Assembly (NCBI GenBank): GCA_037576195.1
Contig: CM075103.1
Coordinates: forward strand, 28,294,723-28,358,722
Reading direction: 5' to 3'
Length of the DNA stretch: 64,000 bases
Origin: Phytoseiulus persimilis
Lineage: Eukaryota > Arthropoda > Arachnida > Mesostigmata > Phytoseiidae
Position numbers and translations under genes: made by a program. Positions 4,241 through 63,637 of this stretch are shown here, in pieces (the first letter of the stretch is position 1; each line of letters opens with the position of its first letter). The notes under the pieces were generated by a model, which was not told where the DNA came from, searched no databases, and saw only the letters and a list, made by a program, of their open reading frames with translations.

Positions 4241-4544
4241 GAAAGAGCGACTCGATTTGGTTCGGTGCTCTGCGCAGCGCCTGGCTAACGTAAGACTCGT
4301 TGAACTTACGCCGAGTCTGTGATTTCGCAATGAATTTGAACTGAATATTGTGAAAAGCCGCTAGTTGTGGGACTTCGTTCGTGGGATCACGTTCTTCAGC
4401 GGATTCGAGGCTAGGCCTGCGCATCGCAGCGCTCTGTGCGCTCCTAGAGGATTCTTTTTGGATATGTTGTGCTGGTCCCTTACGTGCTTCCACATCGTAC
4501 TGGTCGAGCCACCTTTTGATGTGGGATTGGTTTCGACCGTACAT
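4035..4544 (-). CDS. Hypothetical 169-residue open frame crossing the arm A boundary
   Basis: The frame is open for 169 codons on the minus strand. Its first ~100 residues are repeated, nearly unchanged, in arm A' at 63,314-63,628, where the frame is cut by the 3' end of a beta LINE. The predicted protein is basic and lacks signal peptide, membrane segment or any motif I can name. The C-terminal part contains KSPHRLIIVVPRSEPADQ followed by ARPDVYLVLRPNDQ, which looks protein-like, but I cannot assign a family. It could be an exon or transposon fragment; coding status is unproven. Confidence 0.3.
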   Translation of the reverse strand: MYGRNQSHIKRWLDQYDVEARKGPAQHIQKESSRSAQSAAMRRPSLESAEERDPTNEVPQLAAFHNIQFKFIAKSQTRRKFNESYVSQALRRAPNQIESLFLSKADEGRNKVRSDHVLNPNAVGCVSVAKSPHRLIIVVPRSEPADQTGNMARPDVYLVLRPNDQKSNG

Positions 4545-4885
4545 TTATTTGTTCATATGTTCCCTTCCTTTTTAAGGCTGAGTTGTTCTGCGTTCACGAA
4601 TCATTGCACTAGATTATAGCGGGGAAATGTTTGCACCTTGCGGAGTAGCAATCGCGTGGCATTCGCCCGAAACAACGACCAGAGGGAGCTCTGACCACTC
4701 ATGATGGACGCGTGTATTGTCGCTGATTCAGCGACCGACGCCAGCTGACGATGCCGACCATCGGCATGCCCAGCCCGCTTGCCGTCTCCCATGCCCTCGC
4801 CGCCACATATTTCACGTGCTCCCCTACCATGAGAGCGCATAACCCCTCCCAAGATACTTTACATCTTCCACCAACTAGATACCTA

Positions 4886-4903
4886 CCCCCCCCCCCCCCC
4901 CCC
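4886..4903. repeat. Poly-C run of 18
   Basis: An uninterrupted run of 18 C inside arm A. The mirrored position in A' (62,967-62,984) is 12 G, one C, then 5 G. Homopolymer length and the single difference may be sequencing or assembly noise. Confidence 0.9.
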
Positions 4904-5339
4904 TACCGTTCTCGCCGTCAAAATCGCTGCCTGGTTGTCAACGAACGCTCACAGTTCAGCTCACCTCGGAAGCCACCATCGTACGCAAGATTCAATTGAG
5001 TCTAGCAATCTCTCTGGAATTGAGATACTTGTAGATGACAGGCCGAACTCAACGGTAGTCACGGGACCGTACGAGCCGAACCTCCTTTCGCAAGAAACCC
5101 AACCCAACGGGTACGCGAGCTATCCTGGGTCCCCAATTAGGAAACGTCAATCAGGATTCCGAATCCGCGACGGCCATTAAAAGCTGGACGGAGCAGGAGG
5201 CGGAACAGTTCCATGTGGTCTAGCTCCGATTTTAACGGTCGAATCATGCTTCGAACCTATCGCCAACCGACCGATCGGGGCAAACGATGTCTACATCCTT
5301 CACTCACCGGACTCGTCGAGATCCATCTGATCGTTCTGC

Positions 5340-5600
5340 GTGGCAGAGAGTATCTACGGCGGGGATGGAAGCGACAGTGAGCAACGTACGCGATGGATCC
5401 CGACAGCGCAGGTTCAGCGTTTCAAAAGACAGATCCAATCATTATCACGGGGTGCCACGCCGACGCTCAAGGAGGAGGATGCCGCAAGCGATGCCGTTGA
5501 TCTGAAATTTTTGAGGGGGGTGTATCGAGGGAATAAGGGTCTTCTTTCTCGGGCTATCGGTCCTTCTACTTTGAGAGCATCAAGAGATCACTTGAAGTGA
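5340..5600 (+). CDS. Hypothetical 86-residue open frame conserved in both arms
   Basis: This small frame, beginning MAESIYGGDGSDSEQ, is identical at protein level to the frame at 62,270-62,530 on the minus strand. Since the arms are about 99% identical at DNA level here, identity alone does not show selection. No domain is recognised. Upstream (4,935-5,180) a Ser/Pro-rich frame is also preserved in both arms with two or three changes. Reported because an exon of an unknown host gene cannot be excluded. Confidence 0.2.
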   Translation: MAESIYGGDGSDSEQRTRWIPTAQVQRFKRQIQSLSRGATPTLKEEDAASDAVDLKFLRGVYRGNKGLLSRAIGPSTLRASRDHLK

Positions 5601-6313
5601 CTGCTGTGTAGAGGAAGGTGCAAGTTATCCACGACGAAAAGATGATGGCACAGCTTTGCTGTCGCTCTTCCCACGAAGAAGTCATGGATTTCGCTCTTTG
5701 TCCATGATAACCGGAAGGGTGACAAATCGATCCCGAGATATCGCGCTCCAATGTTTACCACCGTTGAACCGATGATTCCAATAGTCTAGTCGTTTGGACA
5801 TTATCCCGAACCACCGGAGCAAGCTAGAGACTTATTTTTTTCGTTCAAATATAGCCGAAGAAGTTCTTTCTCGGCTGAAGCAGGGGTGTTGAAATCGGAG
5901 TTGCAGAAACGTTTCAGAATTCGGGTTCAACAGAGCCAGAAACTGTTTCAACTTGGACTTACGTTATTTCGCGCGGAGTTCGGAGTTGTTATTCACGGAT
6001 GACAGTGCAGCGGGAGTCAGCTCGCCCATCAAGCTATCAGCTAGAGCGTGCGGGAGTTCACCGCCTGAAATTCCGGATGACGGCTAAGACTTAGCACGAA
6101 AAGCTTAGGTCTAAAAGTTGATCGTCGGTTCGCATCTGAGGAACAAGCTAAATCATTGACACACGTCGAACTTCACCGCCAGAGGAGCCGCGATCCCTAG
6201 AACTAAATCGTCTGCTACGACTTTCCCTGGCCTCTCCGGCATAGCCTTCCACCATAGACATCACAGACCCACGATGCCTCAGATTTCGCCAGCGATTACA
6301 CTCAATGAACGGC

Positions 6314-8959: not shown

Positions 8960-10340
8960 GAGAGAGAAATGACCCCTACCGGCCTAACAGCTGGGGGAAA
9001 CCCAGCATAGCGAGCTCGAGCAAAGTCCCGGAGGACGATGTGAGGGACCCGCCTCCGGGGGATGGCTCCTCTATGGGAGGCCACAGGAGGAAGATCGACG
9101 ATCGGAAAAAGGGGGAGCTAGGAGGCAAGGAGACATCATTAACGACGAAGACACCTTAGACGCCGCTCGAGAAACGCAGAAGTAGGAGTTCCGAGACGAT
9201 CGATGGGAATTTTCCAAACGCAACACAGCTGGTAGCTACGATACGACACGGACTCGCCCGAGCCCTTGCAGAAGGTAGCAAAAAATCCGAGATAGCAGGA
9301 AGAGAGGACATCGAAGCCAGCTCAGCTCCGGGAAACGACCCGAATGGACTTCCAGCACCCAGGGACCTTAAACAGGAAATCCTAGAAGAAAAGCTCAGAC
9401 AAATCAAAGCAACCCAGGAGCAGCCGAAAGGCTCGTCCACATCGGAGCACCTGGAGGACACCATCGAGACGCTAGACGATGACATCGACACCATCTCGGA
9501 GAGCTCGATCTCTGGAATCCTCGGGCAAAAGAAGCCAACGTTGCCTGCGGCCGAAAAAGCCCAGGACAAGAGATCGGAGATAGATATAGGGGGGAGCATT
9601 GAGGAGGCTTCCGGGGAGTACACCGGCTCTCGGTGAACGATCAGAAGGCCACTCGATACGGAATCGAGTTCGTCGGTAGCTCCGTGATGACAACTACAGC
9701 TCGAGAGGGAAAACCTGCCACGGAGTTTCGCTACTTCAATGACAACGGGAAGCACGTCCCGTCAGATCACGGCGGAACTATTGGGCCCCTGATCGAGTAG
9801 CTCCAGGAGCAGTGCCTGATCAGAAACACTGCGACGGAGATCCAAAGGATCTCGAGGGATGTTAGGGCAGCCGTCAACCAGGCTCGAACCGGGATTATGA
9901 CACCAGTCAGATCCCACACCCGACACGTCACGGGAAGAGCTCAAGACAGGAAGGAGATCGGAAGCGCGGCGAAGAAACTCGATGAGACAGAAGCCGGAAT
10001 CGAAGAACTCGGAGCGAAAATTAGATCCCAAGGAGCAAGAAGAGGAAAACCAGGAAGAGAAGACAGAATGAAACAGGAGGAAGAAAATGCCAGTGATATC
10101 AAGGACAGGATCATGAAAGTAACATGCCTCGATAAACGCGGATACAACGAAGTCAAGGAAAATCATCGGAGCAACCTTGAAGCTCGCGGGATAGAATACC
10201 CGATCGATATCTCCATCAAGCTATGAATGATCTCAGAGATATCTAGAGGAGGGCAGAAAAGACTCGCAAACTCCATCAACGAGCAACTCGAGATGGAAAC
10301 TACGGTCAGAGGACCACCGCTATCTGCAGACGTCATGATC
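8960..10340 (+). mobile_element. R1-like LINE (gamma) ORF1 remnant
   Basis: Plus-strand frames over this stretch encode a charged, coiled-coil-rich protein. A late segment, DRIMKVTCLDKRGYNEVKE (around 10,110-10,170), parallels LSRVTCLDEVVEL in ORF1 of the R1-clade copy at about 19,990, which places this as ORF1 of a related element. The frame is broken by stops and shifts. The left copy keeps ORF1 to about 10,230 but has no endonuclease or RT after it. In the right arm ORF1 sequence up to the equivalent of about 9,745 is joined directly to pre-RT sequence at 58,147, so the two arms carry differently deleted versions. Confidence 0.65.
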
Positions 10341-10348
10341 AGGCGAAG

Positions 10349-11795
10349 CTTTCGAATTGAAAAAATTGAATTGAATTGAACCGACTTCCGAAAACGTCAA
10401 TATGCGCTTCTCTGGGGAACGCAAGAAGCGGACTTGCGACGATTCCAAATGGTGCCCACACGAAACCGACAGGATGGAAGAGCGGCAGGGTCTCACTTCT
10501 TGAGAAATCAAACTCAAAGGAAGGAAACTTGGCCACCTACAGACTCATTACTATATCGGACGTACTGTATAGAGTATTCACCGAGATATCGGGTGAACGG
10601 CACTTGTATGTTAGACCTCCCCTTCGATTTCCTCTCCCCCGGTGCCGCCAGTTGACGGGCTGGGAACGCGCCATTGAGGCTGTTTTTCGCTCCACTTTTC
10701 AAAGACGGCACCTAACACACAATTACCGGACAATTAAGGGATGTCCCGAGCTATTCCAGAAACTCTCAATACAGGGTATCATGGCAGCGCACAACGGCCC
10801 GATTCAAAAGGATGTTCGTGGAGGATGAATTCGGGCATAAATGCAGTGTTTGCGACCGCCTTCGGTTCCGTAGAGATTCAAAATCGGCCGATTTGGAGGC
10901 GGTGAATTTTCTAACTGAAGTTTTTCCCAGTGAAGACACTGCCCAGTTCGAATCATGTAGCAATTGTTCCAAAGTTTGCGGGAGGAAAGAAAATCGTACT
11001 ATGAGCAGGTCCATTTCCGACACATACGCAGAGGGGCTCTCATTCCCATCCATATATTTCGGAGCCCCTCGCGGAATAGTATCGAACGGCAGAGGAAATG
11101 TGCTTTCTACTACCTACACCGTGAGTATGTCGGGGATCCGGAGGAGTGATCGTCGCGGAGTGACACCTCAACATATCCTCTGCATGGCAATGAAGAATAT
11201 TCGATTCAGGGACCTGTACGCGACACAAAACATGTATGGATCCCTACGCTCAACGGGAATAAAACTCGCGAAATGATTGAAGATCGCGACCTCGTGGAAC
11301 CACTAATCGACACCGATCAAGAATTTTTGAGAACAATTCCATACTCTGTTCAATACTGGTCCACTCGGAAGAAATATCTTTTCGCCATGATCCGTCAACT
11401 TGGGAAGCCGACTGCGTTCCTGACCATGAGCGCGAGCGAGATGAATTGGCCGAATTTACTTCGTATTCTGCACAGGCTGTCTGACGAGTACAAATCTAGA
11501 GACTTCGAAGAGCTTGGTCGGTACGAACATTCTTCCTTGGTGGCAGAGGACCCAGTCGCGTGTTCCATCTATTACCACAACTAGATACTACAAAACGCAT
11601 CTACTGCAGAACCTTAAATGTGTGATCATGGACGAAATAAGTAGGTGCATGTTCGGTCAACTCACGATTACAAGGAAGGAAAGGTGAATACAAAAACAAC
11701 TTTGGTGATTTAGATTTGCTCGCATGTGGCGACCTTAAACAATTACCAACAGTACAGCGCTCCCGTGTACAGCGCTGTACAGAGATCTCAAGGTG
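10349..11795 (+). repeat. Palindrome block B (left copy)
   Basis: Reverse complement at 47,732-49,174; paired coordinates add to about 59,522 with almost no indels. A 160-base sample in the Helitron part shows about five differences, so about 97% identity. The outer edge is an AATTG-rich stretch (GAATTGAATTGAA). On the left the Helitron helicase continues past the block to about 12,320; on the right the block abuts gypsy block C' instead. Confidence 0.9.
10430..10600 (+). mobile_element. I-like LINE reverse-transcriptase snippet
   Basis: The translation contains SGRVSLLEKSNSKEGNLATY followed by RLITISDVLYRVFTEI, which matches the RT motif-1 region of beta (RIGRVSLLEKPNSTKGNLTT..). Only about 50 codons are recognisable. 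It lies between the AATTG-rich edge and the Helitron, and is mirrored at about 48,920-49,095. Confidence 0.8.
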
Positions 11796-12320
11796 GTAGA
11801 GCTGTTCTATGGCGATTGTTGGATCATTTCCCGCTAGTGAGAGTGATGCGACAAAACGATATTATCTTCTCTGCGGTGCTCACAAAAATCAGTTGCGGCG
11901 GGAAATTAGATGCGCAGGAAACGACTATGATCCAATCCCGATTCCGACCGCGTGGTTGATGTGTCGAGAACTTACACAGTGACGTAGTCCTCCTCTTCGT
12001 CAACAACAGAGATGTTAGAGCCTACAACAGAAACGCGGTTCCTACCACACCAACCACAGAGATCAGCATTGTGTCGGATTCTTACACTGGGTACAGCTCG
12101 GAAATCGAAAGATTAGAGGCGATCGGAATAGTAGATCGCATGGAGTGTCAAGGCACAGGCAATGTGCCCCACAGTATCACATTCGCTGAAGGCTATCCAT
12201 ACATGCTAACAATGAACATAGATGTGGAAGATGGATTGGTAAACAGAGTCAAAGGCAAGTTACGTCACGTTGAACATTGCCCGAGTTCGTGTGACGACAA
12301 CAGGTCGAAACGTGTATGAC
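10790..12320 (+). mobile_element. Helitron remnant (Rep/helicase protein)
   Basis: Three recognisable pieces lie in order. First comes a Cys-rich N-terminal region with CSVCDRLRF (from 10,812). Then a Helitron N-terminal domain at about 11,390-11,580, with MIRQLGKPTAFLTMSASEMN and DPVACSIY. Then Pif1-type helicase pieces: a Walker B-like MDEIS at about 11,630, a GDLKQLPTV motif at about 11,730-11,755, and a C-terminal MNIDVEDGLVN with GKLRHVE at about 12,210-12,270. The HUH nuclease region normally between the N-terminal domain and helicase is absent, as are the Walker A motif and much of the helicase. Several stops and frame changes are present, so the element is inactive. The first two thirds is mirrored in B'. 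Confidence 0.88.
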
Positions 12321-12579
12321 TAGAATTCGACACTATAAAGGACGTCTTACACGGTTGATATACATACCACATATCCGTTCCTAATCAGAAGTTCTCAAAG
12401 AGCGGGGGGTACCAATCGAATTACGATCAGTAAGTATGAAAGTACGAGAAAGCAATCGAGGCCTCTAAACAACGAGTCGACAGATCGACTAGCCGGACGG
12501 CCGGCCGATCGGTCGGGAAAACAGGAAAGGAAAACCAGTGAGCCCACGAAGAGTCCAGACCCCGTAATTGATGTACATG
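12320..12579 (+). other. Probable 5' region of the R1-clade LINE, left of the gypsy insertion
   Basis: This stretch lies between the helicase end and the 5' LTR. Because the gypsy fossil is flanked by the duplicated CATG, the DNA left of 12,580 and right of 19,354 were once adjacent; the right flank runs straight into LINE ORF1 sequence. The segment is therefore likely LINE 5' leader, but there is no second full-length copy in the window to confirm it. Confidence 0.4.
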
Positions 12580-12819
12580 TGTCGCATTCCAAGAGAAGCG
12601 TCTTGAGAGACGACCCAGCGGCGACCAGTTGGAGAGGGGGGTCAGTAGAGAGAAAGAGGAGAATCCCGCGAGAATATGAGAGATGAATGAATAGAGTGTG
12701 ACTGATTGTATGAATTAGGATACTGCGACGAGAGTAAAGAGGAGACGGAGTAAACCCGTACTAACCTAGTATACACACCGAATACCGTGTAGTCAATCCG
12801 TGAGCAGTAGAGTCTCACA
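12580..12819 (+). repeat. 5' LTR of Ty3/gypsy fossil 1
   Basis: A 240-base repeat starting TGTCGCATTC and ending AGTCTCACA, matching 19,111-19,354. The ends are TG..CA. The two LTRs differ at about 14 positions plus two small indels by hand alignment, near 6%, which implies an insertion of moderate age. Confidence 0.95.
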
Positions 12820-12896
12820 TTAGCAGCGGTGGTAAAAGAACCAGTTCCGAAGAGAATACGAGAAGTGCCAAGAAGATCAGGGAGGGACAAGCGAAG

Positions 12897-14015
12897 ATGG
12901 CGGAGGCAAGCTTGGCAGCGGTACTGGCGCAGTTAACAAAGACACTGGCGAGTATGGAAAAGAGGATTGAGGGCCAGACGCAACACATACAAGAGGTGAA
13001 GAACAAGGAGGCCAACGAACCGAAACTGGAGGCAAGAGTAAAGCCATACGACACGGCAACGCCCTTAAGGACGTTCTCAGGTGGGACCGTAGCTAGTGCA
13101 GAAAGCTGGTTGCAGGATGTAGTACAGGCAAAAACAGTAGGGAAAAGGACGGAGGACTATACGAAAAGTGTGTTGCATGCTAAATTGGTTGGCCCGGCGA
13201 AATATTGGCAAAGGGATCATGGCAGTAAGTGCGAGAAATTCGAGGACTGGGAAGCGTTATTCATGGAAACGTACGCGCCGAAGAGAAAAAGGAGGGAATT
13301 GATGGAGTATTTCCTACAAAACGGTCAGAAACGAGGGGAGGGGTTGGAAATATATGTGAGAAGGGAAGAACACTTCGCTCTAAAGTTAGAACTGGAACTC
13401 AAAGAGATCAAAGAGCAGGTACTCGAGGGACTGCTACCGGAATACACGTTTCTGATACATATAATGAGGGGGGAAGAGCATAAAAATACGACAGAATTAG
13501 TGCAGGACATCGAGGAAACGATGGAGGTAGACCGAAGGAGAATAAGTCGAGTAAGATCATCACCAATCGGAACAGGAAAAAGATTCGAGGCGAGACCAAC
13601 GTGCTTCATCTGCAACAAGGAGGGTCACAAGCAAGCCTGGTGTCCGGAAAAATCAAGAGACCAAGGGCGATACAGAGGACCCATAGACTACCGAGAATCC
13701 GGAACATATGCCACGAGATATTTAGGAGGAACTTCAGGAGAACGTCAGAGAACGACCGGAGACTGGCGCCAACAGCAACCTGACAGTGGAAGGGACCAAA
13801 TGGGTCACACAAGACCGCCAATGAGGGAATCGACATGGAGAGACGCAACGACGAGCAGAGACCGAGCACCGCGAGACCGTCAAGGAACCTGGGGACCACC
13901 GACAAGAGAACCGACTGCAAATTATCAACCAAGAGTGACAACGCCAGCGGAAGGAGGGAGTTATGGAGGAAGAAATAACGGAAGTCATGAAAGAGGGCAA
14001 AGGAATGTCAGATAA
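12897..14015 (+). CDS. gag: Gag-like protein of gypsy fossil 1
   Basis: About 370 residues. An N-terminal helical stretch is followed by a retrotransposon capsid-like region (residues about 50-190, with SAESWLQDVV and FEDWEALFMETYAP) and one CCHC knuckle, CFICNKEGHKQAWC, near residue 236. The C-terminal 130 residues are rich in Arg, Gly, Thr and Gln and look disordered. In this family the product forms the particle and binds RNA. It sits directly after the 5' LTR leader. Confidence 0.9.
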   Translation: MAEASLAAVLAQLTKTLASMEKRIEGQTQHIQEVKNKEANEPKLEARVKPYDTATPLRTFSGGTVASAESWLQDVVQAKTVGKRTEDYTKSVLHAKLVGPAKYWQRDHGSKCEKFEDWEALFMETYAPKRKRRELMEYFLQNGQKRGEGLEIYVRREEHFALKLELELKEIKEQVLEGLLPEYTFLIHIMRGEEHKNTTELVQDIEETMEVDRRRISRVRSSPIGTGKRFEARPTCFICNKEGHKQAWCPEKSRDQGRYRGPIDYRESGTYATRYLGGTSGERQRTTGDWRQQQPDSGRDQMGHTRPPMRESTWRDATTSRDRAPRDRQGTWGPPTREPTANYQPRVTTPAEGGSYGGRNNGSHERGQRNVR

Positions 14016-17000
14016 GTCGAGAGGGAGTGGAGTTTCGAGCAGATCGAACCAGTGGATTCGGAACGGCAGAGAGGATTGAAGAGAGTAACGGTCAAAGGTA
14101 AAGAATGGTCAGCCAGGGTAGACACGGAAGCAGAAGTCAGCATCATTTCAGAGAAGTCAGCGGAAGAACTAGGATTGGTACGAAGTCCAAGTGCAGAAAA
14201 GAGTATCCGCGGGATAGGAGGGGGCTCATGCGACCCAGTGGGACAATCAAAAATTCTGTCAGAAGCGGATGGATTGCAGCTGGAAGAGGTAACACTCACA
14301 ATCCTACCGACGGGGGCAATGGGTGAAAGAGAAATATTGCTAGGAAAGGATCTGTTGGATAGAGGGCTCGTAACGGTGTACTGCGAAGGGCGATCATGGA
14401 TTTTGAAGGGAGAAGCGTTCGAAGAAATCGCGAGGATCTCACCGAAGGAGGACGTGAAGGTCCAACTGAAGCTAAAAGCCATGGTAACGTTGGAACCACA
14501 ATCAGTCTCAATGGTCACGACGATTCCGATAGAGAAAAATGAAGGAACGCTCATGATCGATCAGGAACCCGGATGGGGAGCATTATGTGAAGTGAGAGAG
14601 GGAGAATTAGTAGTTCCACTCGCAAATGTGGGGGATACAAAGATCATCCTGAACGAGGGCACAGTGGTCGCGCGAGGAAAAATCATTGGGGATGAAAAGT
14701 TTTTCAAACTGAATAGGACCAAAGAGGACAGCAAGATGGCACAAGTGAAAAGAGTCGAGACGAGTGAAGGAGATAGCATACGGGAAGAAGACATCGACGT
14801 GGAACCCAGTGTACCGCAAACCTACAGGACCCAGTTGCTTAGAATACTGAACGAGAATCGAGAAGCCATCGCAACTTCGCGAGGGACCTAGGGAGAACGG
14901 ACCTCACAGAATTCGACATAGACGAAGTGAAGGATAGCAAACCGGTCAGGTGTAAACCGTATAGATTGTGGGAAGCTGAGAATAAAGCCCTGAGCGGAAT
15001 AATAGCGCAACTGAAAGACGCGGGTATGATAGAGAGGTCGAAGTCAGAGTATGCGAGTCCAGTGCTGCTGGTGAGGAAAGCGGATGGCGACTGGAGGATG
15101 GTCATAGACTACAGGAAACTGAATGCGCAAACAGTGAAGCTCAGTTGCCCACTACCGATCATCGACGACATATTGGAAGGAGTTGGAGGCAAACGACTGT
15201 ACTCAAAATTCGACTTGGCGTGGGGATATTTCCAAATACCGATGACAACGAGGGCTTCAGAGAAAGCAGCATTCGTCACGAAGGAAGGGCACTATGAGCC
15301 GAAGGTCCTCATGATGGGGCTGTGTAACGCGCCTTCGAAATTTCAAGAACTGATGGTACAAGTCAGAGACATGGTCGGAAAGCAACAAGCGTTTCCATTC
15401 CTGGACGACTTAATCACAGCGTCGGACGACTACTTGGAGCATCTGGAACATATCGAGAAAATAATGAAAGCACTGAGAAATGCAGGACTGACGATTCGGT
15501 TGGGAAAATGCAAATTCTTCATAGGAGTCGTCCAATTCTTGGGATTCAAACTTTCAAAGAGGGGAGTACAACCAGGAGGAGTGAAGTTGGAGACAATTGA
15601 GCGATTTGCAGCACCGACGGACGTCAATGGAGTAAGGAGGTTCTTAGGACTAACGTCGTTTTTCCGAAGATTCGTATGGAACTATGCAACCATAGCAAAC
15701 CCACTGACGGAGCTGTTGAAGAAAGAAGCGAAGTGCGTGTGGTCACCGACGTGCGAAGAAGCATTCAGACAACTGAAAACCATGTTACTGAGGGATCCAG
15801 TGTTGGAAAGATTCGTACCAGGAAGAAAAACAGAATTACACACCGATGCAAGTTGCGTAGGACAAGCTGGGATGCTTATGCAGGAGGTGAACGGAACATG
15901 GAAAATGTGTTACGCGATCAGTAGGAAGCTGTCGGAATCGGAAAAGAACTACCATTCCACGAAACTAGAACAACTTGCGGTAGTGTGGAGCATGGAGCGA
16001 TTGCGACATTATCTATACGGTCAAGAATTCGTAGTGGTGTCAGATTGTGTAGCGGTCACATCAGTGAAGACGCAAGGAGGGTCCGCGCAGATGTGCCGAT
16101 GGTGGGATAGAATAGCAGAGTTCAACTTCACGGTTCGTCACCGACCAGGAACAGCGATGGCCCACGTGGACGCACTTAGTAGGGATCCAGTCGAAGAAGC
16201 ACAATAGGCGGAAGAGCAAGAATATCCGACGGACTCGAAACAGAAAACAGTGTTCGCAGCGCCAGCGACGCACGATGAATTCCATATGATACAAACAGCG
16301 GATGAGTTCATCAGGGAAAGACTCGAAGCACTGAGGAAGACCAAGGCGGAACGAACGAGAAGGGAAGAAAATTTGGTTCAGGGGTTCTGTGAACGACAAG
16401 GAGTACTGGTCAAGGAGAAGGACGGGAGGAGATTATTCGTGGTACCAAAGGCGATGAGGAAGTATGTTTTGGTTATCGCACACGACAAAGGCGGACACTT
16501 CGGAATGGATAAAACATTGGAGCTAATGAGGACAACGTATTGGTTTCCGAAAATGAGAGAATATACGAAGTTCCACCTGCAAGCATGCATGGAGTGCATA
16601 TTCAACAAAGACTTATCCGGCAAGAAGGAGGGGATGTGTAACGTGATTCGACCAGAGAGAAGACCGTTCCAGAAGGTGTTCATCGATCACTTGGGACCAC
16701 TACCGAAATCACACGGAAAGGAGCACGTCATAGTACTGGTGGACGGACTGACGAAATTTGTGATACTCGAAGCAGTCGCAACAACTTCAGCGGATGGAGT
16801 AATCAAGTTCTTGACGAAGGTTTTCATGACGTACGGGAAGCCCGAGAAAATCGTGTCCGACAGAGGGACTGCGTACACCTCTAAGAAAACGGAGGAGTTC
16901 TTGCTGAAAGAAGGCGTTGGACACATTCTAATTTCATGTCAGAAACCATCATCGAACGGCCAAGTTGAAAGAATCAATAAAGAGGTGGCCAGATTGTTGA

Positions 17001-18110
17001 GATCACTATGCGTACCGGCGGATCACCGGGATTGGGCAAAGTTCTTACCGATGGCACAGATGTACTTGAACAGGGTGGTATCGAGAAGTACGGGGAAATC
17101 ACCATTCGAGGTCTTGCATGGGTATCTACCGAGAATCAATAATCACGCGCAGTTGATAGAGGGCGAACAGGATAGGGTATGGGTACCGGCGGAAGAGGTG
17201 CAGGCAGAAGTTCGGGAACAACTGATGCAAAGCCAGGACAAATACGCGTACTATTACGATGGGGAAAGGAGGCCACATTACATCAGATATTCGAAAGGGG
17301 ATATAGTGGTAGTTAGACGCTTGCCAATCCACACGGGTCAACCGACGAAGTTGCAACCAAAGTTTCGTGGTCCAATGGTCATTTCTGAAGTATTGCCGAA
17401 AGATACCTATCGACTGGTCCAATTGGGTCGAAGGAATTACACTTGTACTGCTCATTGTTCACAACTGAAATGGTACCGACTACACGATGAGAACGAGGAG
17501 GAAATAGAAGCCGACGACGGAACAGACTACGACGAAGAGGAGCTAGAAGAAGCAGGAATCGGAGCCGTGGAGAGACCAGAAGAAGTCATCGAATCCACAA
17601 GAATCAAGGAGCCGGCGGGGATCGAACAGTCGGAAGAAGAGAGGGCAGGAACAGCGGAGAAACCGATCGAGATAGAAACATCGGAATCATCAGAGGAAGT
17701 GCAGATCAATGTAGACCCAAGAATAGTGGGAAATCAGCCACAACAGAGGGCTCGTAGGGATTTGAACACAGCACGATTAGAACCGGCACGTAGAGATAAA
17801 GCAGAAATAATAGATAGAAGAGCACAACCAGGTAGACAGTCGAAATTCGCGGGAAGATACTCGAAGTAGAAAGTCGAGGACAACTTTGGGTAGCGTGGTT
17901 CGAGACGGCTAGAGAAGCGGAGAGAGATACGAAGAATCAACAGAACAAGTGCACGTATGAGATAGAGAGATCTGAGCTAGAGGGAAAGCACAAAGACGAA
18001 GGAGAGGGGAGAGTATCGAGAGCGAACGCGCACCGAAATCGGATCTTTTCCGTCGAACCTCGTGGCAAGAAGACATCATGAACTCTACTAACGAATGACC
18101 GAGCGGGACC

Positions 18111-18791
18111 ATGGGACCCCCCATACTCTTCTACAAAGAGGGCCAAGGGCCGAAGGACGAAAAACCCAGAAGCCGGGCGGTCAACCTCGAAGACGAAAGA
18201 GGATTGGCGTTCGAAGTGAACGTAACGCGGGCGGTTGCCGCGGAACAAGTAGCGAAGCCGATAAGGAGGTGCACGAGGTGTGGCGACGACAGGCACGTGG
18301 AGATCGCCCCATACTGTAAGGCCAGGTGGGTTACGTGTAACCTGCGGAAGGAAGTTGGGCACTTCAGTCGCTGCTGCCCGAAACATAAAGAGAGGGTCTG
18401 CCACAAATGTAAGGGCGTAGGCCACATGGCACGAGACTCCAAGGAGGTGGTCTATGAGAAGACAGCCGACGGAGGCTACGTCGCAAGGAGGGATGGGAAG
18501 GAAGTGGCCAAGTACGTCAGGAAATGCGGCTTCGACCCGGTGGAGTACCAGCTGGAACTAATCCGGAGGCAACTCGAACGGACGGGGTTGAAGGTAACAG
18601 GAGGCTACGAAAGACCACGACGGAAAGAGGGCCAGCCGGTATTTCCGAAGACGACCAACCCAGCGACGGCAGCCACACGAGGCGAAGCAGTTCGACCGCG
18701 GCGCCCCGAACCGGCAGATTACCGCGCAGTGCCACCCCCCGCCGCGTACTCTATTCGTTACGCTCCACCTTCCCCATACGCCGACATGTAA
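18111..18791 (+). CDS. Extra zinc-knuckle protein downstream of integrase in gypsy fossil 1
   Basis: A 226-residue frame between integrase and the 3' LTR. It carries three Cys/His clusters within about 60 residues: CTRCGDDRHVEIAPYC, then a CNLRKEVGHFSRCC cluster, then CHKCKGVGHMARDS. The last is a canonical CCHC spacing. The remainder is basic and Pro/Arg-rich. Gag of this element has its own knuckle, so this is an additional nucleic-acid-binding product or an acquired gag-like segment. Position after integrase is where errantiviruses carry env, but I see no signal peptide, membrane segment or furin site. Short repeats containing TTGTAAGAACAACTGTA follow it at about 18,810-18,900. Confidence 0.65.
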   Translation: MGPPILFYKEGQGPKDEKPRSRAVNLEDERGLAFEVNVTRAVAAEQVAKPIRRCTRCGDDRHVEIAPYCKARWVTCNLRKEVGHFSRCCPKHKERVCHKCKGVGHMARDSKEVVYEKTADGGYVARRDGKEVAKYVRKCGFDPVEYQLELIRRQLERTGLKVTGGYERPRRKEGQPVFPKTTNPATAATRGEAVRPRRPEPADYRAVPPPAAYSIRYAPPSPYADM

Positions 18792-18809
18792 CATATTCAT
18801 CGATATTTG

Positions 18810-39514: not shown

Positions 39515-39640
39515 TGATCCACCGTCAAGTTGTTGGTGAGTTCCGGTTTTCGACTCGAGACAAGTCGTACGGCAAAGTAGTTGACAAACCGTCATTCCAG
39601 ATGCCTTCGAGGTCGTTCGCATCACACCGCCGGAAGCATC

Positions 39641-51483: not shown

Positions 51484-51573
51484 CCATTGATTGATTGATT
51501 GATTTTATTTCGATCTTCCATATGCACATATGGTCCCTTTCGTTTCAGGGGTGAAGTGTTTTGCATTCACAGA

Positions 51574-54500
51574 TCATTTTTCTCGGTTCTCCCAGCATCG
51601 TAAGATTTCCTTCGTCCTTCTAATGTCCTTCGGTGTTGAGTCGGGCTGAAGTCCAATTCGGAACGGGAATTCTCGTTGGGGATACCTTCCTTCTTCGCAT
51701 TCCATCACGACGTGTGTGTCGGTTTCGGGTCTTCCGCATATATTGCAGTTCAAGTCGATAGAAGGACCGCGGTTATGTCGTTGGGTTCTGGTGTTGAGCA
51801 TTCCTGCTCTTGTTAACGCCAGAAGCCGACTGCCCCGCGAGTTATCGTACATATCCAGTTGGAGACCTCTTGTCTCTTTGAATTGTCGATAAATGCACAG
51901 TGTGGACTTGGATTCCATGTTCTGTTTCCATGTATTGTCCAGTTTATTCTGCACCCTCATTTTGAGTTCTTTGCGGAATAGAGTCCACATTGCTGTGCCC
52001 GATGTATTTCTGGTCAGCCCGAGGTTTTCCAGGTCGAATTGCAATCTCAATTTCTTGAGTCTCTCTGTTGCAGTGACCGAGGTGTTTGTTATCTCGGTCG
52101 CCATGAGGACAAGCTTGGGCCATCTCGTTGGGTCCATAGATCTTATCCTTTCGAAGTACATCGTTTTGCTCGTGGTTTCCCGGGCGTCGAAGGAGCTCCA
52201 GCCTAGTTCTCCCTCGATGAACTCCTTTGATATGGTGGAGTGGGGTATCCCGAGAGCCCATCTCCCCGCATCTCTTTGCCTGACTTCGATGAGGTTTCTC
52301 AGTCTTTTGGGCATTGTAATTGCCGCGTTGCAATATGCGAGTTGCGGGACAGCGGTGGCTTTTCAGAGAATTTTGGATACTTCGAAACGGTTGAAGCTCC
52401 AGAGTGTTCTCGCGTTGGGTCTTTGGATCGCCTTATTCGCCGTTTCGGTCAACTTTACCCAATGTTGGGCCAAGTAGTCTTTTTCGGCTGATAATTCGAT
52501 TCCGAGATACGTATATGATGCTACCTCTGGTATTTGCATCCCTTGTATACTCAGGTTTCGATTTTGGATATGTGTCTTTGGTGGTCGAGAGAAAACCAAT
52601 GTGCCGCTCTTTTGAGGATTGAATTTGATGGACCGGGCGTCTCCAAATTCTGTTGTTACCTTCAAAAGCGTTTCCATATCCTTCCATTCGTGTGCCATCA
52701 GAACGATGTCGTCGGCAAACATCAGGCCAGGGATCGTGAAATATTTTCTCTCTTTCACGTCCCAGAAATTGCCTTTTTTCGCAAATTTAAAGCCAATCTC
52801 TTTTGAGAGTAGTTGCCGCTCGAGATCTGCGATATACAGGCTGAAGAGGATCGGAGATAGAGGACATCCCTGACGAAGTCCGGTGGGTATGGACATTTCG
52901 TTCGAGGTGTGGTCACCGTATTGAATGAAGATGTAGGTGTCTTCATACAGGTGTTTAATGAGCTCAATCAGTGTTGGGTTCATTCCTCTTTCCTCAAGGG
53001 TTTGCCACAGCTTCAGTCGATCGATGCGATCGAAGGCTTTCGTAGCATCCAAGAACACGCAAATCAGACCCGTTTGTTGGGCTCTGGCGGTCTCAATTGC
53101 CGTTGTTAGAACAAAAATGTTGTCCTCGCCCCGGCGGTCTATCCTGAACCCATTTTGCATCTCCGATAGTTGTTCTGTCTCCTCTGTCCATTTTTGTTTG
53201 TGTTTCCCCAGTATTTTGGTGAGTACTCGATACATGACATCGGATACAGTGATGGGTCTGTAAGTGGTAAGGTTTCCCTTCGTTGAGTTTGGTTTTTCAA
53301 GAAGGGAGACCCTGCCTATCCTCCATTCCATCGGCAGCTCGTGAGTGCCTTCCAGAATCTCATTGAATACATCGGAGACTTATTCGTAGCCGATATCGTT
53401 CAATGCTTTGAGGATTTTCGTCGGTATCTTGTCGGGTCCAGTGGCTGAATTCTCGGAGATTCCCGCCAGGGTGATTTTCACCTCCGAACCTGTTGTGACA
53501 AGATCGACTCGTGGCCTCGAGAGGAAGCATCGATCCTTATGGTTAGGATTGTCTTCGGCTTCCAGCAGGTGATTTGCTACTCTAGTAAGGTAAGCTGTCA
53601 TATCCAGCGGTTGGACATCGTTACCAGCTTCATTTACTATTCGTATCCTGTCTGGTGCCTTTCTCTCGTTCTTCTTGATGTACTCCCAGAATGCTTTGGT
53701 TTTTGCTTGTCTGGGGGCTCTCATTATTTGGTCGTACATTTTACGATCCCTGATATGGAGTTGGTTCGCGATTTCGGTTCGGACAGCGTCTTGTGCTATT
53801 CGATACTGCCTTTTCGCTTCTTCCACGCCAATTCCAGTGTGTCTGGCTTTCCTCCATGCACGATTCTGTTCCCTTCTGTATCTCGAAAGTTGTGATATTT
53901 CGGGGGTGAGTATTCTCTTTCTCGTGTCCACATTGATGAGTTTAGTACTTTTGGTCATTGCATTTTGGAGGGTAGTCACCAGATCCCTGTAGTTGGCCGA
54001 TCTTGGTGATCTGACCAAAGTTCCCAGTTCACTTGTGGCTGTTTCCGCTGCTTTTTGTAACCGTAATACTTTCACTCGTGCCTTCTGGAGTTTGCCGTTT
54101 CTCTTGCCCTTAGCGAGGTGTAGGGTAATGAGGTTATGGTCGCTCCAGTTAACGACTTCTTTGTTCTCGTCTATGTGCATGGACATAACCTCTCGGTATG
54201 CTGCAGCGTTGCAGAGTACATAGTCGATTGAGGACGAATGACCACCCTGTGTTCGGGTGATCCTTCCTTCGCATTTTTCGGACAGATTCAGAATTCTGAG
54301 GTCGTGTTGGTCGGCTAGCTCAATGATGAGCCGGCCCCGACCATCTAGTCTCCCGTCAAGCTGTTGGATATGGGCGTTCATGTCGCCCGCAATCCCTAGC
54401 TTGGTGTCCTTCTCAACTCTAGCTCGGATAACATCTCCTATATGTCGGAATTGTTCCTTAGTCGAGTTTTGATCGGCGATGGCGGCGTAGACTGAGATGA

Positions 54501-54830
54501 AGACCCATTGTCGGTTTCCTATCTCAGCGCCTATTGCAATTAAATCAGCCCCTTTTTCGGTCCAGCGTATCTCGTCCATGGTAGATCGGATAAGTATCCC
54601 TGTTCCACCGGATGATTTACTGCCAGAGGGTCCGTTTCGATTGTTCCCGTAAAATGTGAACCCTTCGATCCGAGGTGGATTTTCTAGGTTCATCAGGTGG
54701 GTTCCTGAGAGGAGGAGGATATCATAGTGATCTGATAGTCTCCTAGTTTCAATTTTGAGAAGGTCTTGATAGAGACTTTCCCACTTGGCTGGGTTTTTCC
54801 CCCCTTGCATGTTGAGAACACCAATCTTAA
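51574..54830 (-). pseudogene. LINE beta ORF2 (endonuclease / reverse transcriptase)
   Basis: One reading frame spans 54,810 to 51,574 with only two stops: one after LKALNDIGYE (about 53,380) and one after RFEVSKIL (about 52,360). The endonuclease has GVLNMQGGKNPAKW, GDMNAHIQQLDG and WSDHNLITLH. RT has RVSLLEKPNSTKGNLTTYRP, FLDATKAFDRIDR, RQGCPLSPILF and MFADDIVLMAH (about 52,710). The C-terminal Cys/His motif is CNICGRPETDTHVVMEC (about 51,740). Length, about 1,080 codons, matches a complete APE-type ORF2. A retained 3' end and nearly open frame indicate recent activity of the family. Confidence 0.92.
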
Positions 54831-54888
54831 TGCGAAAATGTATTTTTATTTTTTCATCGTAGATGGTGCCTCCGGGGGGAGCGGACCG

Positions 54889-56331
54889 CTAGGATGATGG
54901 TTTTTTGGGGGCTTCTTGTAGGATTCTGGAAAGCTCGATTGTTTCCTCCTCCTTGGTCACCTCTCGCTGAGGAGTCGAAGTTTGCGGGTGAGATTTTTCC
55001 TCTCTCCGCTCCTCAGGTTCTGGGTGGTGACTCCGGCCCTGTCTCCGGTTATCGTGGCTTTGACGGGCTACGTGGGGTCGCCCCTTCTTTTGCTCACTGG
55101 TCCCCAACTCGAGTGAGGTATCTCCCACACTTCTTTTTTTTCCCCGCGCCTCTTGGTGGCTGCGGCTTATTGAAGTGTGGTCGATCCAAGTCGGGGGCTC
55201 GACCAGAGGTCTGATCTGTGTGGCTCGGAGGCCTGGGGTGGCCTCCGAAATTGCTCGGACGGGTCGGAGCGTTACGAGCACCAGAGGTGGAGGGTTTCTC
55301 CTTGGTCTCGGTTGTCTCGACCTTGGGTTCCGGCTGCGCACACAGATTTTCTGCGCCGTCGGACAGCAGCTGATCGATCTCGGCCGAGGGTATATGCGGG
55401 CCTTCGCCTATTCGGCGACTAATCCTGATCATTGCCTCGACGTGACCAGCTTTATTCCAGCCCTGGTTTGAGTTAAACGCAGGGCGTTCTGAAATATACC
55501 TGAGATCTATTGTCTCAGTGCTGCCCTTCAGCTGAGTCAGCAGGCTGTCTATGTGCGCAGAGTGGCCATAGTTCTTGTTGTCTACACGGAAGGTTGTGTA
55601 GACTGCCCTGTTGACTTTCTCGTGTCTCCCGAGCTCCTCGAGTGCTTGCTGCGCTTCCGCGACAGCCTCGCTCCTCTGGTAAGAGGCCTCTTGGAAGACA
55701 CTTTGATCTCCCCACACGAGGACTGTGGCAAAGCAGGTGTAGTCTGCCTTCTCCAGCTCAGCTGCTGCCCTTGGCAGAGCTGCGCCGTGGAGAGAGGCCC
55801 GAACGTCCTGACTCTCAGTCCTCTGTGTTTGTTGAGGAGCGCAAATATGGTGTTCGACGGGAACAGATCGGCACAGTGCCGGTCCATGCATAACATCACT
55901 ATAGGTCCACGGTAGACCTGTTTAGGTGGTGCCGTCTTAAACTGCATGGGACTTTGGCTGATTGCTTCCCTCAGTTGGTTTTCGAGTTCGGCACATCTTG
56001 CCTCTGTTGCAGCAACGGTTGCTGCGAGGCTAGCCAATTTGAAGTCCCTAGCCTTCACTTCTTGGTTCTGCCACTCAATATAGTTTAGAGCGGCAGCCCG
56101 CTCAGTCATCAGAGCAAGTCGCTCTGACCCTGCACAGGTGTGACACTGTAAGATTACAGAGTCGTTGGGGTTCATGTCCGTCCCCATCAGCTTCTCCTCA
56201 CACTGACTGCAGATGTCGAATGTGGGATTAGCTCTGAGGGTTTCCGGATTGAATTCCATTTTGAGGGGTCTTCGGAAAAGGTATTTTATTTCCACCCACT
56301 CACTCCTCTCCCTATTTTTCGGAGCTTCCAA
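54889..56331 (-). pseudogene. LINE beta ORF1 with SGNH-like domain
   Basis: N-terminal zinc motif with CSQCEEKL and CHTCAGSE, then a coiled coil, then an esterase-like block: GPIVMLCMDRHCADLF (block I-like). After a frame change between about 55,890 and 55,750 come VLVWGDQSVFQE (GxND-like position) and SNQGWNKAGHVEAMIRISRR (block V-like, with a His). The tail is Pro/Arg-rich with short basic clusters. Layout and several segments parallel alpha ORF1, though sequence identity is low. SGNH catalytic residues are not fully canonical, so the domain may be structural. Confidence 0.6.
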
Positions 56332-56559
56332 CGGTTGGACAGCTCCTACTTCCGATGTTTATCGGTAACGTAAACACTGCCTCTCGATGGTTCACGGTGA
56401 ACCTTCGATGGATTCTCAGCTGTTTTAGAGATTCCAGACAGTGATACGTTGTCTAGCGCGTGTCGATATTCAAGTCGCTAGGCGTACCTCGAGGCGGTAT
56501 GCCTTTTTGCGATTTTCCGAGCTTGGGAGTTTTTTTGTTCGACGAACCTGGTCTGTGGA

Positions 56560-56900
56560 GGTGCACGGGCCTGGGGGGTGGTTCTTGGGTTCGGATCCGG
56601 TGTGTTTTTCCACCTTCACCCGACTTCGAAGAATGTGGAGTGACGACGTTTTGAATCTGGGCTCTTTGATTCTTCAAGCATGTCTGCTGCTATCTCGTCT
56701 GGTCCCCTTGGCTGAGCTTCGTGATATGTTCGTCAAGATTGTCTTGACCTCCATACCCGATACGATTTGGCCCACCGGTTGCCTTGGGGAGACCGAGTGG
56801 TCCACCGGCTCGGGACTGCTCGTTGCAGCTGATGAAGTATTTGCGATTGTTGTCAGATGAGCGGCCATATTTGCGTCTGGGACATCCACTCCGTTTCCAT
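56560..56900 (-). mobile_element. Fragment of another I-like LINE (pre-RT)
   Basis: Minus-strand translation includes PVGQIVSGMEVKTILTNISR followed by SSAKG and, one frame over, PDEIAADMLEE. This parallels TTGSEVKITLAGISENSATG and PDKIPTKIL of beta just before RT motif 1. Only about 60 codons are recognisable, and the rest to 56,450 is not assignable. Confidence 0.6.
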
Positions 56901-56976
56901 CTAATACTCGTAGGCTTTCTGATTTTCTATAGAAATTCTTTCAGCTCGCCGTAGACCTCCAACCCCCGATCAGTAT

Positions 56977-57298
56977 GTGCCTCAATCAACGAAATCCAGG
57001 ATGTACGAGGATTCGATTGAAGGTCCCTTTATTGAGCGTGATTCCGATCCGTTGTTACCTCTTTTGAATGAGATGGATGTACTTGACGTGAAAAAACCAA
57101 AGCCTCAACCACGAATCCAAACCACCATGAAACCACATCCTCCTCCACGAATCCAAACCGCTGCGTTAAGCGATGGCAATCTTGTTCCTAGTCTTGGTAA
57201 TAATATTTACAAATGCACTGAAGCCTCTCTCTGCCAAATATAAGGATGGAAAAGCGATGAAACACCTTGTCGCGATCGCCGATGGTGATGAATATGTA
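56977..57298 (+). pseudogene. Hypothetical protein with Pro-rich repeats
   Basis: An 88-residue frame with an acidic N-terminus (MYEDSIEGPFIERDSDPL), then two copies of a P-P-RIQT motif (KPQPRIQTT and HPPPRIQTA). Around 57,205 the coding-like signal moves to another frame, giving NALKPLSAKYKDGKAMKHLV and AIADGDEYVRDQCM, ending at a stop near 57,316. It looks like part of a real protein gene broken by one frame change. I do not recognise the family. Confidence 0.35.
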
Positions 57299-57303
57299 CG
57301 TGA

Positions 57304-58147
57304 TCAATGTATGTGACGGACCGTTACGGAATGCAGTGATTGATCTTCTGAGAATAGGGTGATATATGGCGGTCTCTCAGCTTGCGGAGGATGTTTTCTC
57401 ATTCCAATTAGCTGAAGGCGTTCTCTGTATCCAGTAAGGCCATTGCGCCAATTCTTCCACGTCTCCATGGTACGGCTCGCTCCTCTCGGGCTTCTCTCAT
57501 TGCATAATCCAGCGCTCTGAGGGTGGATCTTCCTGTGCGGAATCCGTGTTGTGCCTGGGAAAGCCGATCGTCTTCTTCCAGCTCGGCTTAGAGTCTGGCG
57601 GTGATGAAAGTTCCTACTCCTGGCCACGGTATTCAGCGGACAGATTGGTCTGTGGGTGTCTCTCTTTCCGGGCTCCACGATTGGGATTAGTTTTGCCGTC
57701 TTCAATTCATATGGAGAGGCGCTTCCCTTCAGGATGCCGTTGACCATTTTCGAGGAGGGGAAGGGCCATCCTTGCACGAGCGTCTTAGTCGCTCTCGCGG
57801 GGATCCCGTCCGGGCCGAGGGCCTTCTTCGGCGATTTGCGGTTCGCTTGGCTTTGACTTCTTGGCTTGTTACCTTCGGAATGTCCTGAGGGTTGATGTCC
57901 GGGAGCTCGCGAAGAAGACTTTCCCTCGTGGGAAGATTTTTCCGACCGCCGCGGTTCCCGCCTCCGGAGTAAGCATGAGTCTCTTTTGAGTAAGTTTTTC
58001 TCTAGCTATCTTGTACGGAAGTCCCCAGGGATCTTCTCTGATGCTTCCGATGAGTTCTCTACATTCGTTCCTCCTGGCTGTGATCATTACTTATTTGCCA
58101 TCTTTTCGGCCTCTGTGTTTGCCAATGATATCGCGTTGTCATTGAAG
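57304..58147 (-). mobile_element. R1-like LINE (gamma) pre-RT/RT remnant
   Basis: Minus strand: RREDPWGLPYKIAREKL-type pre-RT (58,087-57,869; the exact residues are IREDPWGLPYKIAREKL), MLTPEAGTAAVGKIFPRGK, then PKKALGPDGIPARATKTL (about 57,840-57,790), GILKGSASPYELKTAKLIPI and KPGK-like VEPGKRDTHRPI, the RT motif-1 region. The remainder decays by 57,304. Upstream it joins, after an internal deletion, the ORF1 sequence that belongs to arm A'. It is the complement of the left-arm gamma remnant in what it retains. Confidence 0.75.
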
Positions 58148-61082: not shown

Positions 61083-61556
61083 ATGAAGGTCGTGTTAGTA
61101 CTGAGGTATGCTTCTCCGAGTAGCAGCTGCACGAAATTAATGCTTGCAGGCTCGTTTGGGCCAGAGCACGTAGCACCCGGGAGAAGGATTCGGAACTGGT
61201 CTCATCGTAAATTGCTGAGTGAGGGCAGGCGATGGGTATTTATCAGTCGACTTCTTGGTGAGTACAGAGGCCAAGAGCTTACACCAGTCAAGCCCGAATT
61301 GCCACTGAGTTATCAGAGGCGAAAAGTTTCAAGAATCGACGGGAAGCGAAGTTGGACAGCTAAGAGCAGCATATTGAGAATCGAATGCGAAGGGGGAGTG
61401 GAGCAGTCCGATTCTCTCACTTCGAGAAAAAATATTCCCGAGCTTTTTGAGAGACAATGTCTGGTTCCGAAGTTCCATTCAGCTACTTCTGTCATCATGA
61501 ACCACATTTTATCCTTCCGAAGTGATTTTACGAAACACAGAGACATCTTATTGTAA
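61083..61556 (+). CDS. Hypothetical 157-residue open frame, arm A' copy
   Basis: Mirror of the frame at 6,314-6,778. Three extra N-terminal codons are available because an upstream ATG is present here. No family recognised. Confidence 0.25.
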   Translation: MKVVLVLRYASPSSSCTKLMLAGSFGPEHVAPGRRIRNWSHRKLLSEGRRWVFISRLLGEYRGQELTPVKPELPLSYQRRKVSRIDGKRSWTAKSSILRIECEGGVEQSDSLTSRKNIPELFERQCLVPKFHSATSVIMNHILSFRSDFTKHRDILL

Positions 61557-62966
61557 GCCGTTCATTGAGTGTAATCGCTGGCGAAATCTGAGGCATCGTG
61601 GGTCTGTGATGTCTATGGTGGAAGGCTATGCCGGAGAGGCCGGGGAAAGTCGTAGCAGACGATTTAGTTCTAGGGATCGCGGCTCCTCTGGCGGTGAAGT
61701 TCGACGTGTGTCAATGATTTAGCTTGTTCCTCAGAAGCGAACCGACGATCAACTTTTAGACCTAAGCTTGTCGTGCTAAGTCTTAGCCGTCATCCGGAAT
61801 TTCAGGCGGTGAACTCCCGCACGCTCTAGCTGATAGCTTGATGGGCGAGCTGACTTCCGCTGCACTGTCATCCGTGAATAACAACTCCGAACTCCGCGCG
61901 AAATAACGTGAGTCCAAGTTGAAACAGTTTCTGGCTCTGTTGAACCCGAATTCTGAAACGTTTCTGCAACTCCGATTTCAACACCCCTGCTTCAGCCGAG
62001 AAAGAACTTCTTCGGCTATATTTGAACGAAAAAAATAAGTCTCTAGCTTGCTCCGGTGGTTCGGGATAATGTCCAAACGACTAGACTATTGGAATCATCG
62101 GTTCAACGGTGGTAAACATTGGAGCGCGATATCTCGGGATCGATTTGTCACCCTTTCGGTTATCATGGACAAAGAGCGAAATCCATGAGTTCTTCGTGGG
62201 AAGAGCGACAGCGAAGCTGTGCCATCATCTTTTCGTCGTGGATAACTTGCACCTTCCTCCACACAGCAGTCACTTCAAGTGATCTCTTGATGCTCTCAAA
62301 GTAGAAGGACCGATAGCCCGAGAAAGAAGACCCTTATTCCCTCGATACACCCCCCTCAAAAATTTCAGATCAACGGCATCGCTTGCGGCATCCTCCTCCT
62401 TGAGCGTCGGCGTGGCACCCCGTGATAATGATTGGATCTGTCTTTTGAAACGCTGAACCTGCGCTGTCGGGATCCATCGCGTACGTTGCTCACTGTCGCT
62501 TCCATCCCCGCCGTAGATACTCTCTGCCACGCAGAACGATCAGATGGATCTCGACGAGTCCGGTGAGTTAAGGATGTAGACATCGTTTGCCCCGATCGGT
62601 CGGTTGGCGATAGGTTCGAAGCATGATTCGACCGTTAAAATCGGAGCTGGACCACATGGAACTGTTCCGCCTCCTGCTCCGTCCAGCTTTTAATGGCCGT
62701 CGCGGATTCGGAATCCTGATTGACTTTTCCTAATTGGGGACCCAGGATAGCTCGCGTACCCGTTGGGTTGGGTTTCTTGCGAAAGGAGGTTCGGCTCGTA
62801 CGGTCCCGTGACTACCGTTGAGTTCGGCTTTTGATCTACAAGTATCTCAATTCCAGAGAGATTGCTTGACTCAATTGAATCTTGCGTACGATGGTGGCTT
62901 CCGAGGTTCGCTGAACTGTGAGCGTTCGTTGACAACCAGGCACTGATCGTGACGGCGAGAACGGTA

Positions 62967-62984
62967 GGGGGGGGGGGGCGGGGG
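62967..62984. repeat. Poly-G run in arm A'
   Basis: Twelve G, one C and five G, the mirror of the 18-C run at 4,886-4,903. Confidence 0.9.
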
Positions 62985-63313
62985 TAGGTATCTAGTTGGT
63001 GGAAGATGTAAAGTATCTTGGGAGGGGTTATGCGCTCTCATGGTAGGGGAGCACGTGAAATATGTGGCGGCGAGGGCATGGGAGACGGCAAGCGGGCTGG
63101 GCATGCCGATGGTCGGCATCGTCAGCTGGCGTCGGTCGCTGAATCAGCGACAATACACGCGTCCATCATGAGTGGTCAGAGCTCCCTCTGGTCGTTGTTT
63201 CGGGCGAATGCCACGCGATTGCTACTCCGCAAGGTGCAAACATTTCCCCGCTATAATCTAGTGCAATGATTCGTGAACGCAGAACAACTCAGCCTTAAAA
63301 AGGAAGGGAACAT

Positions 63314-63637
63314 ATGAACAAATATATGTACGGTCGAAACCAATCCCACATCAAAAGGTGGCTCGACCAGTACGATGTGGAAGCACGTAAGGGACCAGCA
63401 CAACATATCCAAAAAGAATCCTCTAGGAGCGCACAGAGCGCTGCGATGCGCAGGCCTAGCCTCGAATCCGCTGGAGAACGTGATCCCACGAACGATGTCC
63501 CACAACTAGCGGCTTTTCACAATATTCAGTTCGAATTCATTGCGAAATCACAGACTCGGCGGGAGTTCGACGAGTCTTACGTTAGCCGGGCGCTGCGCAG
63601 AGCACCGAACCAAATCGAGTCGCTCTTGATTGATTGA
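63314..63637 (+). pseudogene. Hypothetical open frame cut by a LINE insertion
   Basis: The first ~100 residues match the frame at 4,035-4,544, with an extra MNK start. The match stops at NQIESL, where the beta LINE tail (TTGATTGATTGA) begins, so the last residues here are LINE tail. This identifies the insertion as later than the arm duplication. Confidence 0.45.

Follow-up and report, generated by a model that had tools for sequence, protein, structure and literature searches.

Large inverted arms around a spacer characterise the ampliconic palindromes of mammalian sex chromosomes, where gene conversion is possible and arm identity exceeds 99%, and long inverted repeats are a feature of the transposon Galileo. 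As far as the available text of the reports goes, foldback transposons such as Tetris (PMC4079207) have such repeats in common with Galileo (PMC4168063), large human inverted duplications formed by fold-back or break repair are mirror-image segments with models of origin in repair or replication (PMC3907307, PMC10766186), and at an inversion breakpoint of Drosophila subobscura inverted duplicates lie at fragile, rearranged sites and are modelled by breakage and template switching, the Attacin gene pair at the breakpoint also stemming from an inverted duplication (PMC7584159). Here we describe a mirrored locus in the mite Phytoseiulus persimilis, in a window of 64,000 nucleotides (C3:28294723-28358722) that is rich in transposon remnants: long interspersed nuclear elements (LINEs), Ty3/gypsy elements, and Helitrons. 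We consider that it probably represents a genuine inverted segmental duplication of transposon-rich DNA of about 27 kb (left 1142-28216 or somewhat more, right ~40259-68009). The kind of structure is already known; what is specific here is an outer edge that lies within an older mirrored repeat pair.

A sequence-only reading of the window had proposed that four blocks recur inverted in the order A-B-C-D / D'-C'-B'-A', and self-BLAST bears this out at 95-98% identity. The order and orientation of the four-block layout stand, but B' and C' are not separate, being one contiguous block on the right. The mirror is likewise real, but not its proposed limits of 4241 and 63628: the self-BLAST of window and flanks shows that it extends beyond the window, to about -1.3 kb on the left and about +69.9 kb on the right (coordinates below 1 or above 64000 are flanks outside the window, of which 40 kb were fetched per side). 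Mirrored order and orientation then hold over seven blocks, flanks included, listed here from the outside inwards (identities from BLAST, substitution counts per aligned base):

-1292..299 and 68455-69949, inverted: block A4, 81.6% BLAST identity, 168/1476 substitutions, the older outer stratum
693-3621 and 65499-68446, inverted: block A3, 156/2906 substitutions
3613-4244 and 64582-65242, inverted: block A2, 43/630 differences
4243-9750 (+) and 58131-63627 (-): blocks A and A', 97.0% in self-BLAST, 146/5491 substitutions
10347-11802 (+) and 47721-49176 (-): blocks B and B', 96.5%, 51/1456 substitutions
25661-26934 (+) and 46449-47722 (-): blocks C and C', 97.6%, 31/1274 substitutions
27372-28216 (+) and 40515-41347 (-): blocks D and D', 94.8% with gaps and 97.3% of aligned bases, 22/828 substitutions
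28217..40514: spacer, with LINE remnants on both strands and a GMP reductase gene fragment

Similarity between the arms ends on both sides: a self-comparison of a further 20 kb per side, with matches within four named array intervals excluded, gave no further arm blocks, only tandem and repeat-array matches.

With the mammalian palindromes the locus shares inverted arms and a spacer, but arm identity is about 97% and no intact gene could be made out in the inner arms; over aligned bases A to D are 97.2% identical, not near the 99-100% of a gene-converting palindrome, and A2 to A4 92.7%. The human duplications, as described in the available text (PMC3907307, PMC10766186), differ from the mite locus, where the outer edge falls within an older pair of inverted paralogs and the arms are old and heavily rearranged. 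The breakpoint duplicates of D. subobscura measure 59 and ~540 bp in the part of the report used (PMC7584159). Unlike Tetris and Galileo, the mite arms contain no repeated mobile unit and occur once each among the best candidates scored, without dispersed copies, on which ground a mobile foldback unit was rejected; no target duplication was seen by eye at their outer ends in the printed junctions.

Among the best candidates scored, full-length arms occur at this locus only in the assembly (181 Mb in 127 contigs; C1-C4 measure 54.7, 52.0, 38.9, and 28.1 Mb, and four large chromosomes would suit a predatory phytoseiid mite). Genome searches scored the best 40 of 352 candidates for A, 40 of 167 for B and C together, and 40 of 280 for D. 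At full length (5.5 kb) A was found in two places, both here; its other matches are pieces of at most ~450 bp at 70-81% identity. The sequence-only reading had some 4 kb of A matching no known element, which is roughly right among these candidates: about 1.4 of the 5.5 kb has dispersed relatives at 70-81%, and the rest matches its partner only. B+C at full length also occurs here only, with pieces of B of up to ~600 bp elsewhere (up to 92%), and so does D, represented elsewhere by 70-86% pieces and very short ones. No allelic or third copy of A, B+C, or D was found on the 127 contigs among the best candidates scored. Because full-length partners lie only here and the match continues past the window, we regard the locus as a local inverted duplication and not as a set of dispersed transposons; dispersed copies as the source of the blocks were rejected on the candidates scored.

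The right arm has lost DNA that the left arm keeps. The features involved are:

10347..11802 (+): block B, the 3' end of a LINE (last 15-34 bases) followed by a Helitron helicase remnant (Helitron_like_N, 2.6e-10)
11803..25660 (+): left-only stretch of 13,858 bp, absent on the right, starting as the continuing Helitron and ending as a continuing Ty3/gypsy-like frame
25661..26934 (+): block C, a Ty3/gypsy RNase H and integrase remnant, with RNase H and weak H2C2 domains detected on the right copy
47721..47722 (-): fusion point, Helitron joined to gypsy with a 2-bp (GC) overlap

A Helitron relative on C1 (L063, the sole copy fetched) matches the left arm unbroken over 11598-12445, a span that crosses the left end of the gap, and its match to the right arm ends exactly at the fusion, 47721. 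Since this relative runs through the left break and stops at the right fusion, the right arm has lost the 13,858 bp. Of the nine Helitron rows at the fusion end of the B+C search, seven, L063's place included, have their end exactly at query 1456, the fusion, and the other two end at 1452 (best 40 of 167). On the gypsy side, the reading frame continues by eye in the left arm upstream of 25661. B and C as one element was ruled out, because the Helitron relative continues into the left arm and not into the right. By these matches the right B'/C' junction is a deletion fusion, and on the left arm the two ends of the deletion still stand in order.

At the inner end the polarity is reversed. Block D is a gypsy fragment whose left copy stops at 28216, and it was compared with seven fetched loci representing four dispersed gypsy places. 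In three of the four the match passes right 40515 and goes on to ~40259; in the fourth (C2 2.745 Mb) an insert of ~650 bp sits exactly at the D boundary, at TA, and the match resumes to ~40257. Against left D the gypsy match ends at 28215/28216 at three places and at 27947 at the remaining one, none going beyond 28216. Left D thus seems to have been shortened, as the gypsy relatives continue past right 40515 and not past left 28216, a polarity that the three places free of an insert set. A third asymmetry is a LINE insertion in the right arm whose empty site is preserved on the left. Deletion fusion, reversed polarity, and empty site together indicate that the arms derive from one ancestral segment. 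The private changes outside the B/C deletion are:

9751..10346 (+): left-only segment between A and B, 596 bp
49177..58130 (-): right-only sequence between B' and A', largely LINE remnants with RVT and endonuclease domains, with dispersed LINE copies
63628..64581 (-): LINE insertion in the right arm, 954 bp, with an AATC-repeat tail, a 2-bp AA overlap, and an empty site at left 4243/4244
43435..45348 (-): right-only array element, 45-bp units at 43722-45153, near-identical copies on C1-C4

No second copy of the 596-bp segment was found in the genome, its three matches being the segment itself and the ends of the two flanking blocks. Many dispersed LINE copies end at query 1039-1058 and B begins at query 1025, so of the LINE that has its body on the right the left arm keeps no more than the final 15-34 bases. 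The inserted LINE at 63628 is identical to 51487-52450 in 949 of 964 bases. The 45-bp array recurs at 97-100% on C1-C4, at full length in at least 12 other places and over 1343 bp in one more (best 27 of 1627); one end of the 1.9-kb element is sharp in the window and in at least two of three fetched copies, and the other runs into a GTTT repeat in all three. Its appearance is that of a retroposon carrying a tandem array internally.

The arms also carry two strata of divergence, the inner one, inside left 1142, standing at about 3%. Inner blocks A to D differ by 2.4-3.6%, A2 by 6.8%, and the sequence outside left 1142 by 6.5-17% per bin; divergence is homogeneous among A to D (p=0.29) and heterogeneous over all seven blocks (p=2e-50). 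Over A3-A2-A the best change point falls at left 1142 (right 68009), with a likelihood ratio of 100.5 against 50.0 at 4243, the LINE site, where a step had also been considered and was replaced on account of the higher ratio. The two sides of the boundary are:

693..1141 (+): outer stratum, in a copy of the outer-edge repeat family; left and right are old paralogs, 67/436 differences
1142..3621 (+): start of the inner stratum, with a sharp boundary at 1142 (right equivalent 68009), 89/2470 differences, 0 of them at 1142-1399

Position 1142 itself falls inside a copy of the outer-edge repeat family. From 1000 to 1142 the right copy differs from the left copy at 19/142 and from a family copy at C3 34.03 Mb at only 7/143; from 1142 to 1300 left and right are identical over 158 bp, each 12/158 from the copy at C3 34.03 Mb. 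Because the nearest relative of the right copy switches at 1142, the recent event appears to have ended inside an older pair of inverted paralogs. The earlier proposal of one inverted duplication, with arms of more than 20 kb later invaded by different elements, thus fits the data, and it is refined by private deletions in each arm and by the two strata, which imply that an older inverted pair preceded the main event.

Our best reading is that paralogs of the repeat family seeded a later inverted duplication, or that a long arm-to-arm conversion acted. Under a seeded duplication, a break near one older inverted paralog would have been repaired by invasion of the other (break-induced replication or an equivalent), the inner sequence would have been copied in mirror orientation, and the copying would have stopped close to today's spacer in a non-homologous join. 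Such a repair is inferred because the outer edge lies in homology and the inner edge is without any found. Afterwards the right arm would have undergone the 13.9-kb deletion and gained LINE insertions and the repeat-array element, and the left arm would have lost nearly the whole LINE and had D truncated.

Several points weigh against this account of a seeded duplication. The duplication is known from the sequence of a single assembly, and Pfam matched neither the short fusion frame nor the gypsy frame on either side, the evidence at the fusion being DNA matches. The inner junction is obscured, as neither the left arm nor the spacer yielded a counterpart of right 40514-40259, and the left end of D may be a plain insertion site, given the unrelated insert at the same TA in the fourth gypsy place. 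A2 (6.8%) diverges more than its inner neighbours. Identity is uneven beyond chance within A3 (partly from the step itself), A4, A, and B, which hints at conversion; long identical runs are in excess in these four blocks and not in A2, C, or D. Finally, gene conversion inside 1142 of a long old palindrome would leave nearly the same strata. The latter possibility, in which all 30 kb of the mirror are old, with the ~11-15% divergence of the outer stratum, and the inner 27 kb were later homogenised by a conversion, is one that we take seriously while holding it to be rather unlikely. At -100..300 the left and right copies are mutually closest (12.9%, against 23-26% to the two other copies compared) and identity comes in patches (A3 has an identical run of 258 bp, A one of 345 bp), but the homogeneity of A to D speaks against it, and it needs a very long tract or many tracts with a common stopping place. 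Conversion and seeded duplication are inseparable from one genome, and the patchy identity may speak for some conversion.

The remaining explanations are much less probable. Two haplotypes, or a misjoined contig, assembled head to head would suit a repetitive region with tandem arrays on both flanks; such an artefact is quite improbable in view of a divergence running from ~2.4% to ~15% with a sharp step, the many arm-specific insertions and deletions, the lack of an allelic copy on other contigs among the best candidates, and the end of similarity on both sides. That the arms are a small-RNA master locus, a mirrored catalogue transcribed into double-stranded RNA that silences transposons, would agree with the LINE, Ty3/gypsy, and Helitron fragments gathered in inverted arms and with their likeness in content to the small interfering RNA master loci of dust mites, where three transposon-catalogue loci span 62 kb; yet inverted arms are not reported for those loci in the available part of that study, which attributes Piwi-interacting RNAs to other Acari (PMC5805368). 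Being argued from DNA sequence, such a role is very improbable, and the default for the function of the mirrored arms is none. Least credible of all, to the point of being barely conceivable, is that dispersed transposons inserted independently and came to lie in this pattern by chance: transposon remnants do make up B, C, and D, and the locus is transposon-rich, but the only near-identical full-length partner found for each block among the best candidates is here, and B' and C' belong to different elements that a deletion joined, the ends of which remain in order on the left.

The repeat family at the outer edge contains a 208-codon open frame, and most copies have at least one stop. Pfam gave the frame no match at or near the cut-offs, and none of 176 protein candidates reached E<=1e-3; a guess that it encodes a chemoreceptor was dropped, as these searches gave nothing in support. 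A genome search with the family returned 39 rows (47/47 candidates scored), all in three clusters:

C3 33.76-34.36 Mb: 11 rows, 10 copies, 7 minus, then 3 plus
C2 5.14-5.54 Mb: 19 rows, ~15 copies, 7 plus, then 6 minus (5.14-5.39), with outliers, one plus and one minus, at 5.52-5.54
the window locus: 9 rows, 3 copies, 1 plus, then 2 minus

The strand switches once along each cluster, the two outlying C2 copies excepted. One could tentatively suppose that the family repeatedly seeds mirror-image duplications and that the window shows a seed boundary that can still be read, a doubtful generalisation at present.

Other features of the locus are as follows:

12579..19354 (+): Ty3/gypsy-type long terminal repeat (LTR) element in the left-only stretch, LTRs 12579-12819 and 19110-19354, with a flanking CATG repeat by eye
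39581-40259, with pieces at 41671-41887 and 42399-42569: truncated GMP reductase copies

The LTR element has separate open frames for protease, reverse transcriptase, and integrase, and its LTRs are identical at 226 of 240 aligned bases; LTR divergence does not support an age greater than that of the duplication (14/240 against 51/1456 in B, Fisher p=0.10). GMP reductase frames of 383-388 codons, apparently intronless, lie at C2 15.79 Mb, C2 20.82 Mb, and C1 10.68 Mb. Among named records the spacer fragment comes closest to Galendromus occidentalis (72%), one further record being closer at 86%, and its Pfam IMPDH match was not retained as IMP dehydrogenase, the named matches being mostly GMP reductases (best 120 of 8000). 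The insert at the D boundary TA at C2 2.745 Mb (L026 ~584-1232) also holds 45-bp-unit-like sequence; its position at exactly the gypsy base where left D ends may be a coincidence or mark a favoured insertion site. On the left flank, from -39.5 to -13.5 kb (L045, L046, L041, and part of L042), stands a tandem array of ~14-15 copies of a ~1.8-kb unit, mostly 92-97% alike; a genome search with the unit returned short dispersed matches only and missed its own array too, so it is uninformative on the unit's abundance. Also left of the arms, L042 2569-4536 has Ty1/copia-type polymerase frames (RVT_2, 3.1e-43), and the right flank has arrays of 45-bp units between 83.3 and 93.9 kb. An Rfam scan of the window and flanking L041-L044 gave no match, and a transfer RNA scan of the window found none.

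This locus illustrates that a decayed inverted duplication can be argued for from a single assembly, private deletions and dispersed relatives setting the direction of change. Its boundary can still be read, and there inverted paralogs of greater age apparently gave rise to a newer and larger inverted duplication. If it is true that one family seeded three places, then the origin of mirrored clusters would become testable by comparing related mites.

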